DNA from: Lysobacteraceae bacterium
GTDB taxonomy: Bacteria; Pseudomonadota; Gammaproteobacteria; Nevskiales; Nevskiaceae
Length of the DNA stretch: 64,000 nucleotides
NCBI GenBank assembly: GCA_013823855.1
Contig: PNMW01000011.1
Location: 62,001 to 126,000 of the forward strand
Reading direction: 5' to 3'
Position 1 is the first letter of the stretch. The number at the start of each line of letters is the position of its first letter. Both the position numbers and the translations under genes were made by a program. Of this stretch, positions 19,169-21,408 are shown piece by piece. Below the pieces are notes generated by a model, which worked only from the letters and a program-made list of their open reading frames with translations, made no database searches and was not told where the DNA came from.

Positions 19169-19852
19169 ATGCACGTCCTACTTGTCGAAGATCATCCCGA
19201 TCTCGCCGCCAATCTTGGTGATTTCCTTGGCAGCCACGGTCACAGCGTCGACTTCGCTGCCGATGGCCCCAGCGGCCTGCGCCTGGCGCAGTCGCAGCGC
19301 TTCGACGCCATCGTCCTCGATCGCCTGCTGCCGGGCCTCGACGGCGCCAGCGTCTGCCGCCGCCTGCGCTCGGCCGGCGGCCAGCAGGTGCCGCTGCTGA
19401 TGCTGACCGCGCTCGACACCGTCAACGACCGCGTCGAAGGCCTGCGCGCCGGCGCCGACGACTATATGGTCAAGCCGTTCGCGATGGTCGAGCTGCTGGC
19501 ACGTCTCGAAGCCCTGCACCGACGGGCCACCACCGCGTCCGGTGACCGCCTGCTGGCGGTCGCCGATCTCGAGTTCGATCTCGATACCCTGATCGCACGG
19601 CGCGGCGGCGAGGCGATCAGCCTGACGCCGGCGCTGCGCAAGCTGCTCGAACTGCTGATGCGCGAGACGCATCGCGTCGTCGCCCGCGAGGAACTGGAGC
19701 GGCGCCTGTGGGGCGATGCGCCGCCGGAAGGCGACGTGCTGCGTGCCCACATGTACGCGCTGCGGGTGGCGATCGACAAGCCCTGGCCGCGCAAGCTGCT
19801 GCACACCATCCACGGCAGCGGCTACCGGCTTGCCGATCTTGGCGACGGCTAG
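19169..19852 (+). CDS. OmpR-family response regulator
   Basis: A 227-residue two-component DNA-binding regulator. The receiver domain has the acidic pair Glu7-Asp8, phospho-acceptor Asp51 (VLDRLLPG) and Lys102 (DDYMVKPF). The C-terminal winged helix ends in LLHTIHGSGYRLADL, as expected for OmpR/PhoB members. A GGAGAG site precedes the start. The stop codon TAG at 19850-19852 is part of the CTAG at the outer end of an inverted-repeat element, so insertion of that element occurred exactly at the gene's end. The partner kinase begins on the other side of the element. The regulated genes are unknown. Confidence 0.92.
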   Translation: MHVLLVEDHPDLAANLGDFLGSHGHSVDFAADGPSGLRLAQSQRFDAIVLDRLLPGLDGASVCRRLRSAGGQQVPLLMLTALDTVNDRVEGLRAGADDYMVKPFAMVELLARLEALHRRATTASGDRLLAVADLEFDLDTLIARRGGEAISLTPALRKLLELLMRETHRVVAREELERRLWGDAPPEGDVLRAHMYALRVAIDKPWPRKLLHTIHGSGYRLADLGDG

Positions 19853-19871
19853 GGCCTGTCATCGATTACTG
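19849..19871 (+). repeat. left terminal inverted repeat
   Basis: 23 nt, matching the reverse complement of 20113-20135 at 22 positions. It begins with CTAG and contains the stop codon of the response regulator gene. Confidence 0.85.
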
Positions 19872-20112
19872 CGGCCGCTGCGGCGGAGGTCGCTTTTGCC
19901 CAGTGCAACGAACGAGGAGCAGCCAATGGTGGTTCCATTGGCGCGACGAGAGAGGCAGCAATGGGCAAAAACGATCCCGCCCCGAAGGGTTGCCGCCAAA
20001 AAGCCGCCGGCGCAGAGCATGCTCTGCGCGTTGCAAACCTTGACCATAGGGAGGCTATGGCCTGCGGTTCGCGCCTTGCCCGGCGGCTTTTTGACCGGCA
20101 ACGCAGCGGGCA

Positions 20113-20135
20113 CAGCAATCGATGACAGGCCCTAG
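20113..20135 (-). repeat. right terminal inverted repeat
   Basis: 23 nt, the inverted partner of 19849-19871. It contains the only good ATG (20122) for the histidine kinase gene. Confidence 0.85.
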
Positions 20136-21408
20136 TCCACCGGATCTCGATCGCGAGGCCGCGCCACGGCGGCAGCCGGTCCGCATCGCCGGCCTCCGCA
20201 ACCGGCTGGCGCTGGCGCTGCTGGGCCTGACCATCACCGCGGCGACCATCCAGGGCCTGTGCTTCTGGGCCCTGGAGTACTGGATCGAGCGCGACAGCCT
20301 GATCACCCTGCTCAGCCGCGAGCTCGATTACATGATCGAGACCGGCGCGCCGCCGAGCAGCGAACCGCCGGGCGTCGGCAGTCTGCGCCAGCGCTACTAC
20401 CGGAGCGATCAGCCGACGCCGCTGAGCCCGGAGATCGCCGCGCTCGACCCCGGCTGGCATGGCGACGTGACGATCGCCGGCCTGCACCACCTGGTGCTGG
20501 TGCGGCAGCTCGGCGACGGGCCCGGACGCGCCTATCTCGCCTACGACAGCCGTCGCCTACAGGTGCGCGGCAAGCGGCAGATCGTGTCGTTCCTGTTCGG
20601 GCTGGCCGTGGTGCTGGTGATCGCGCTCTGGGGTGCCCGGCGGCTGGCCCGCGAAGCCCTGCAGCCGCTGGCCGGGCTGGTCGGCCAGATCCGCGTGCTC
20701 GACCCCGAGCAGCGCGGGCCGCGTCTGGTCGCGGTCGACGACCCCGATCTCAAGGTGATCTCCGATGCGCTGAACACCTACATGGCGCGCTTCGATGCGG
20801 TGGTCGAACGCGAGCGCGTGTTCTCGTCTGCAGCCAGCCACGAACTGCGCACGCCGCTGACGGTGATCCGCGGCGCCGTCGAATTGCTGGTGGCCGGCGT
20901 GCCCGATCCGAAGCGGCCGCTGGCCCGGATCAGCCGCGCCGTCGCGCAGGCGCAGGCCGATCTCGACGCGCTGCTGGCACTGTCGCGGCTGCGCGAGCCG
21001 CCGACCAGCCGGGTGCTCGATCTCGACCGCCTGCTGCCGGAATGGGCCGAGCTTGACGACACCACGGCGACCCGGCTGGTCTGGCGGCTGACGCCGACCC
21101 GGCTGATCGCCTCGCCGGGCAGCGTCCACGTGATCTTCTCGAACCTGCTGCGCAATGCGGTCCGCGCCGCCGGGCAGGACGGCGAGGTGATCATCGAACT
21201 CGCCGATCACGTGCTGCGGGTGACCGACAACGGCCCCGGCGTGCCGTCGAACGAATTGCCGCTGGTCTTCGAGCCGCATTTCCGCGGCCGCGACGGCGGC
21301 ACCGGCATCGGCCTGTACGTGGCCCGCACCCTGGCGCGCCGGCATGGCTGGGAGCTGACCCTGACCAACCGCGCCGAGGGGGGCGCGATCGCCGAGCTGA
21401 ACTTCTAG
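20122..21408 (+). CDS. sensor histidine kinase
   Basis: A 428-residue membrane kinase, probable partner of the response regulator at 19.2 kb. It has two membrane helices (about residues 28-50 and 153-172) around a roughly 100-residue periplasmic sensor region, then a HAMP-like linker. The HisKA domain has phospho-acceptor His240 in ASHELRTPLT, and the HATPase domain has the N box NLLRNAVRAA, the G1 box VTDNGPGVPS and the G2 box GGTGIGLYV. The start codon lies inside the right terminal repeat of the mobile element, so its first five residues (MTGPS) are encoded by that element. Before the insertion the start must have been further upstream, perhaps overlapping the regulator gene. The signal sensed is unknown. 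Confidence 0.9.
   Translation: MTGPSPPDLDREAAPRRQPVRIAGLRNRLALALLGLTITAATIQGLCFWALEYWIERDSLITLLSRELDYMIETGAPPSSEPPGVGSLRQRYYRSDQPTPLSPEIAALDPGWHGDVTIAGLHHLVLVRQLGDGPGRAYLAYDSRRLQVRGKRQIVSFLFGLAVVLVIALWGARRLAREALQPLAGLVGQIRVLDPEQRGPRLVAVDDPDLKVISDALNTYMARFDAVVERERVFSSAASHELRTPLTVIRGAVELLVAGVPDPKRPLARISRAVAQAQADLDALLALSRLREPPTSRVLDLDRLLPEWAELDDTTATRLVWRLTPTRLIASPGSVHVIFSNLLRNAVRAAGQDGEVIIELADHVLRVTDNGPGVPSNELPLVFEPHFRGRDGGTGIGLYVARTLARRHGWELTLTNRAEGGAIAELNF

Follow-up and report, generated by a model that had tools for sequence, protein, structure and literature searches.

Between a response regulator gene and a sensor histidine kinase gene of a Lysobacteraceae bacterium lies a short stretch of DNA packed with inverted repeats. 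It holds the stop codon of the first gene and the only plausible start codon of the second. What is this stretch, and what has it done to the two genes? The window analysed here is 64,000 nucleotides of a single contig; the features discussed are collected in the table below. Our reading is threefold: the stretch is a mobile element, the stop codon of the regulator is native, and the start codon of the kinase has been replaced. We put the joint probability of these three statements at about 0.8.

Coordinates of the element and its neighbouring genes, in positions of the window
Feature	Position	Strand	Basis
Response regulator gene, receiver and Trans_reg_C output domain, stop TAG 19850-19852	19169..19852	+	Pfam PF00072, PF00486
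TTG, probable ancestral kinase start, 14-nt overlap with regulator end	19839..19841	+	common to L059, L060, L143 and the joined flanks
Old kinase-start frame, open across the element, 98 codons, ends at right TAG 20133-20135	19839..20135	+	translation is proposed
Left copy of TA target duplication, inside CTAG	19850..19851	unstranded	101-copy alignment and empty site L059
Element, 281 bp, GGGCCTGTCATCGATT...AATCGATGACAGGCCC	19852..20132	+	repeats, sibling copies, profile, empty site
Left terminal inverted repeat, about 30 nt	19852..19881	+	
Core arm P1, long hairpin with conserved internal loop	19882..19981	+	arm model R1 covers P1
Central hairpin P2, CCCGAAGGG	19981..19989	+	2 counted pairs kept in 101/101 and 100/101 copies
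Core arm P3, long hairpin; outer stem is an A-tract paired with a T-tract	19990..20101	+	
Right terminal inverted repeat	20102..20132	+	
ATG in right terminal repeat, sole kinase start codon in reach	20122..20124	+	
Right copy of TA target duplication	20133..20134	unstranded	101-copy alignment and empty site L059
Sensor histidine kinase gene, intact, 428 codons	20122..21408	+	Pfam HisKA, HATPase_c; dN/dS

The element and its insertion site

The window at 19849-20135 reads CTAG GGCCTGTCATCGATT ... AATCGATGACAGGCC CTAG. A sequence-only reading of this DNA had described a structured stretch of 287 bp with CTAG ends and nested inverted repeats; its coordinates are exact and the repeats reappear on recomputation. 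It had also given the terminal repeats as 23 nt long. These repeats are present but do not match perfectly over that length: the first 19 nt are identical and 22 of 23 positions agree, the lone mismatch being A/G at position 20. Complementarity of the terminal repeats is 84% over 43 nt. Inside them lie inverted repeats at 19890-19906/19958-19974 (88%) and 19997-20010/20080-20093 (100%), and the smaller hairpins CCAATGG/CCATTGG, CCATAG/CTATGG and CCCGAAGGG appear in both sequence and fold. Folding of the plus-strand RNA, which had been proposed as a check, gives -175 kcal/mol for the 287 nt, far below the -117.5 +/- 5.7 of 200 dinucleotide shuffles (z = -10); none of the 200 folds as low. A chance palindrome is ruled out by this fold and because the element is repeated elsewhere in its own genome.

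The segment 19852-20132 is a MITE-like non-autonomous mobile element. Its core is unusual, about 270 bp of nested palindromes with strong covariation in the stems. It has several traits of MITEs: it is short and without a transposase gene (281 bp is too short for one), it has terminal inverted repeats and a target duplication, and there are multiple copies per genome. The open frames listed across it are incidental and shared with the flanks. Its G+C content is 63.1% against 68.6% for the window, which is not the AT-richness that the accessible part of one account names as typical of MITEs (PMC10969869); such richness is not a defining trait. A consensus scan of 19700-20300 gave no internal promoter and no simple terminator. 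In Rfam, the best match of the window copy scores 26.3 bits against a gathering cut-off of 82, and copies in six distant loci have no match.

The regulator TAG (19850-19852) sits inside the left CTAG. The sequence-only reading had placed it there correctly but took it to be supplied by the element. The closest relative at the locus (L059, regulator 97% identical) lacks the element, and its regulator ends GGCGACGGC TAG (GGC TAG), followed by CGACTCC; the stop is therefore native. This is the one empty site studied in detail, and it provides the comparison with a close relative that had been suggested. A kinase frame directly after the regulator is also found in L060, like L059 a metagenome assembly, and in L142 to L147. 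None of the relatives whose locus was compared shares the insertion with the genome of the window. The proposal that a non-autonomous element was inserted at the gene junction is borne out by the multiple copies, the target duplication, the empty site and ends of the same kind as those of insertion sequences.

Insertion took place at the TA of the CTAG that holds the native stop. With G as the first base of the element, TAG is restored at the left end and preserved at the right end, and the regulator is unchanged. The same boundaries are seen in other copies. After removal of one repeat of the same place from 102 placed copies, 101 were aligned (hits spanning fewer than 180 model positions were omitted); the first element base (column 4) is G in 97 of them and the last (column 268) is C in 98. 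The left TA is preserved in 66/101, the right TA in 58/101 and both in 40/101, the other 61 not having it at both ends as aligned. The bases outside the TAs vary; 21 of the 40 copies with TA at both ends have C and G as the next outer bases. This pattern agrees better with a TA duplication of 2 bp in a CTAG-like target than with a duplication of 4 bp.

The kinase start

The kinase open frame starts within the element, and the ATG at 20122 is the only ATG, GTG or TTG of that frame up to 130 nt past that position, which agrees with the earlier placement of the sole kinase ATG in the right repeat. Relatives have a different layout. A TTG lies 14 nt before the regulator end in L059, L060 and L143, and also in the flanks of the window when they are joined without the element. 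Starts were listed from 80 nt before the regulator end; further candidates are a GTG at +55 in L059, a TTG at +94 in L143 and a TTG at -23 in the joined window. In more distant relatives there is an ATG at +26 to +36 (L142, L144 to L146), while L147 has an ATG at -41 and a GTG at +25. The overlapping TTG layout upholds the suggestion that a coupled pair was separated and the kinase start replaced, given that the old TTG was presumably in use.

The insertion put 283 bp between the regulator and the kinase and severed the kinase from its probable overlapping TTG start. An in-frame ATG, lying by chance in the right terminal repeat, would now serve as the kinase start. The displacement of 283 bp is 1 modulo 3, so the old TTG frame is open through the element and stops at the right TAG. 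The new ATG overlaps this TAG by 14 nt, the same overlap as before the insertion; the equality may be luck, given the handful of possible in-frame spacings. Ribosomes entering the old TTG frame would read 98 codons through the element and stop at the right TAG, overlapping the new ATG.

We regard this read-through as the likeliest single route for kinase expression, at somewhat less than even odds. The new ATG is predicted to be 0.1% unpaired in the free mRNA. When a ribosome is masked at the regulator stop it is about 1% unpaired, and the openness of the 17 nt in front of it increases from 19% to 42-56%; when a ribosome is masked at the right TAG it is fully open, which the mask itself imposes. 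The calculated ribosome-binding duplex in the window is poor for the old TTG (-1.7 kcal/mol) and reaches -3.4 kcal/mol for the new ATG. Without read-through, the models leave the ATG buried in a stem, and kinase expression may simply be low. The kinase is presumably still made; in the relatives, the old TTG is presumably the start in use. Its dN/dS is 0.15-0.22 against three relatives, and theirs among themselves is 0.20 to 0.24, but most of this divergence may predate the insertion.

Copies, exchangeable ends and a probable transposase partner

A search for further copies had been suggested, and such copies occur in the same genome and in relatives. The genome of the window (G000; 3.87 Mb, 87 contigs, 88% complete) has seven other matching places of 139-285 nt with 76-96% identity. 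Two of these, L005 and L007, lie at contig ends with 46 identical bases common to both and are probably halves of one copy. A model of the arm finds at least nine copies, and the range over methods is 7 to 9. A DNA match is present in 52 of 100 genomes. The arm model matches 68 of 85 genomes of the order (E up to 1e-5) and, across the class, 63 of 369 genomes in 52 of 272 genera (E up to 1e-6); the genome of the window is included in each of these counts, and the 63 include two more of the order. The E-values are rough, being based on a short calibration, and copy counts by this model are lower bounds, as 42 (order) and 9 (class) candidates were scored per genome. All nine loci fetched outside the order show the arm with a central CCC-GGG hairpin; L303 and L306 are in reverse orientation and L304 is cut by a contig end. 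A full copy in G013 (L021, 1501-1773) and an internally deleted copy in G002 (L172, from 1947) occupy the same site, as judged by matching flanks. Since these are two species, copies can be inherited for long.

Carriage of the window copy by a phage or plasmid was considered and rejected, as it has no match in either; copy L309 has none in plasmids. Copy L302 matches four plasmid records, and an Azotobacter copy matches five, of which one is its own record and one covers only 43 nt of an end; it has no match in phages. On an Azotobacter plasmid, an annotated IS630-family transposase gene adjoins the element copy (L313, 1783-2918). An exact scan of a contig collection with 20 nt of the element end returned nothing. 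Two viral contigs contain 16 nt of the end, and neither matches the element profile.

Many copies sit on stop codons. A predicted gene stop lies in the terminal TAG of 33 of the 96 copies (out of 101) with about 350 bases of flank on both sides; genes here were predicted not by a gene finder but by a script that scores codon usage, with 33 open frames of the window as its training set. Stops that fall in an element number 34 at the terminal TAG and 7 elsewhere, while cut genes would put about two thirds elsewhere; interruption of genes therefore looks rare. The script found no gene open through a whole copy, although an insertion would usually cut the gene at the element anyway. Element-free CTAG sites at the same loci lie in genes (41), between genes (38) or on stops (13, or 13/51 of the non-genic sites). 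No special mechanism is needed for this preference for stop codons: a CTAG-like target, together with the loss of those insertions that hit genes, can account for it. Orientation relative to flanking tandem genes is mixed, with 34 copies in the same and 26 in the opposite direction. The same crude script suggests that three other copies may donate a start codon to a neighbour: L237 (GTG, 14 nt inside), L215 (ATG, 16) and L210 (TTG, 15).

The two ends of a copy belong together, whereas cores that are almost identical can bear very different ends. Left and right repeats of the same copy have a median identity of 0.92 (98 copies), against 0.62 between different copies. Among 1,396 pairs of copies with cores more than 80% identical, 255 have ends less than 65% identical. 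In G006, L232 and L229 have cores 94% identical and ends 29% identical, and each copy's two ends match each other. Outside the order, L302, L306 and L309 keep the layout with other ends, their TA-flanked repeats being 269-270 bp apart. Ends of the GGGTCTGTTGACG or GGGCCTGTTGACG type are found in copies on plasmids of Azotobacter chroococcum, Pseudomonas aeruginosa and Halomonas. G016 has a DDE_Tnp_1-type insertion sequence with ends TA-GGGATTCTCTGATTAAC (L315, 1017-2184). The ends of the distant copy L308 resemble these by eye.

Some sibling copies share their ends with insertion sequences. Those in G037 (L261), G015 (L265) and G034 (L279) are 808-831 bp long, and their termini consist of TA and then a repeat containing GTTAAC. 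L261, whose domains were examined, has two overlapping frames that together encode DUF4096 (PF13340) and DDE_Tnp_1 (PF01609); each frame matches the NCBI IS5 family model NF033580. Among the best 20 matches, L020, L203, L231 and L233 have the same 19 nt, TA included, as the end of L261, and L239 and L230 agree with the end of L279 in all 18 nt at each of their two ends. The sequence-only reading had suggested looking for an autonomous insertion sequence with the same ends; insertion sequences with such ends turned up for GTTAAC-type copies, but the GTCATC-type ends of the window copy match weakly (16/19 with an E of 0.43; 10 exact nt with an E of 1.5), and no insertion sequence with GTCATC-type ends was found. 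Comparison of the core with four insertion sequences gave nothing convincing beyond the ends, and thus nothing that points to internal descent of the core from an insertion sequence.

The element is probably moved in trans by an IS427-like transposase of the IS5 family. G000, at 88% completeness, has no match to PF13358, PF13340 or PF01609; its copies are probably stranded, or else the partner lies in the missing part of the genome or belongs to another family. G025, G036, G044 and G042 have at least 29-42 copies each by the arm model and likewise no match to PF01609. IS630 elements prefer CTAG, and an IS630 partner was considered and rejected: PF13358 occurs in 5 of 17 genomes searched, that of the window not among them, and none of 12 fetched loci shows these ends.

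What the core may be and how it compares with known systems

The 101 copies align over 271 columns with a median pairwise identity of 67%. They share an outer stem, formed by the terminal repeats, and three hairpins: P1, CCCGAAGGG and P3. Watson-Crick pairs fill 9,528 of 10,707 pair cells (89.0%), against a mean of 7,599 (71.0%) and a maximum of 7,668 in 200 shuffles; 60 of 108 pairs have at least two Watson-Crick types, each in at least five copies. When 34 diverse P1 arms are aligned on their own, 95.2% of pairs are standard against 76.2% when shuffled, both sides change in 26 of 33 pairs, and the signal is lost once the partner columns are slid out of register. Kinship among copies makes the shuffle comparison look stronger than it is; the sliding comparison is less affected. 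The profile and the arm model match both strands of many copies, but descent of P3 from P1 finds no support in a global alignment of the consensus half-cores, which scores 7.0 against a shuffle maximum of 9.5.

The wobble pairs bear on whether this pairing is that of RNA or DNA. Over all columns there are 417 G-U and 288 A-C cells. When columns with 15 or more G-U or A-C are left out, an omission on which the balance depends, there are 181 G-U and 243 A-C (ends 80 vs 87, P1 52 vs 57, P3 49 vs 99). We read this as pairing at the DNA level or arm-templated change rather than RNA selection, although a few columns with fixed G-U speak the opposite way. The central loop is found as GAA and as TTC within the same genome, and the stubs L176 (about 2031-2089) and L181 (about 2381-2440) consist of the two terminal repeats alone around a GCTGCG or GCAGCG centre, their cores apparently deleted at 3-nt homologies (GCG or CGC); both observations would suit a process acting on DNA. 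What conserves the core is probably its behaviour as single-stranded DNA or cruciform rather than as RNA, and arm-templated repair may keep the stems matched. In L178 (1682-2002) and L183 (from 2734), A- or T-tracts are replaced by small palindromes, CCCARRTA...TTGGG, as if a second tiny repeat were nested in the element.

We tentatively propose, at less than even odds, that a single ancient folded core, built of nested bulged hairpins that surround CCCGAAGGGTTGC, is mobile as a unit and has persisted across Gammaproteobacteria by swapping both its ends for those of whichever IS5-type transposase was available, and that it is selected as folded single-stranded DNA or cruciform. The core would perhaps attract the transposase during replication, or perhaps be copied by arm-templated repair. 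If this is true, a CTAG target would often place the element on TAG stops, leaving the gene intact and rewiring the gene downstream.

Conservation of the core across the class while the ends change would also suit a unit that the host or an enzyme recognises (a single-strand transposase of the Y1/RAYT type, for example) and that took over the ends of several insertion sequences. We consider this unlikely. Within the order, Y1_Tnp is present in 56 of 68 genomes with the element and in 7 of 17 without it (p = 0.001, with no correction for kinship), but 3 of 25 genomes with at least 20 copies have no Y1_Tnp match, and 20 fetched Y1 loci gave one marginal match (E 0.014) and no clear copy. A RAYT partner is thus associated by presence and not by position, and we know of no RAYT for which TA duplication is a feature.

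Less probable again is that the element acts in the transcript, as a leader or attenuator fold under selection that sets the ratio of kinase to regulator. The very stable fold (z = -10), the burial of the new ATG in a stem, and covarying arms with a few columns of fixed G-U would suit such a role. Selection on RNA of this strand predicts an excess of G-U, however, and the low-wobble columns have 181 against 243 A-C; the orientation to flanking tandem genes is mixed (34 vs 26), and an insertion found in one genome among the relatives compared offers no conserved regulation here. That the stretch is an ancient conserved operon leader and not mobile at all, as its position between two genes of one operon might suggest and as the sequence-only reading would have accepted had there been no other copies and a spacer conserved in distant relatives, can be dismissed: copies exist elsewhere and relatives have an empty site without the spacer.

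The element is a real mobile element, of an ordinary type, unusual in its conserved core and exchangeable ends, and at this locus it has rewired a kinase start. In bacteria, a MITE is usually regarded as what deletion has left of a single insertion sequence within a single lineage. This element has an inside that is conserved across a class and ends that are exchanged, which reverses that view and raises the question of what the core is for. The locus is also a clear natural example of two-component genes that overlapped and were then separated, the downstream one apparently being rescued by a start codon in a transposon end. Searches of the openly available full-text literature, including end and core strings, returned no account of the element. 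One or other of the strings occurs as a primer sequence in PMC12457610 and PMC10106347, and also in PMC3004942 and PMC4810273, which in their accessible parts concern human cells and a herpesvirus.

Several known systems resemble the element in part. REP and BIME palindromes are likewise structured repeats near gene ends, and to our knowledge REPs are without TA duplication. The copies do not flank a Y1 transposase gene as RAYT-mobilised REPs do, with one marginal match in 20 loci. According to the available portion of one source, REPs are 20-40 bp (PMC3733652), whereas this element is 281 bp with terminal repeats. The IS427 group of the IS5 family shares the 2-bp duplication, L261 being about 830 bp with two overlapping frames and 18-19 end bases identical to those of several copies; the ends and TA duplication of this group are found in sibling copies and only weakly in the window copy. 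Part of one account describes the group as 832-865 bp with mostly 2-bp repeats, and with two frames and a frameshift motif in some members (PMC3281130). The element differs in having no transposase and a core unlike the four insertion sequences beyond the ends. MITEPsy1 of Pseudomonas syringae is also non-autonomous, with a suspected relation to IS5, and inserts at CTAG or YTAA; it differs in being 100 nt long, with a 4-nt duplication and other ends, and the accessible text of its description mentions no such core (PMC3189936). QMITE1 and QMITE2 of Coxiella, Correia/NEMIS and CIR are small repeated sequences with strong stem-loops, and some alter gene ends (PMC5896051, PMC2229807, PMC10969869). 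As far as the available parts of these sources go, each is tied to one or a few genera, whereas here one core spans a class and its ends change.
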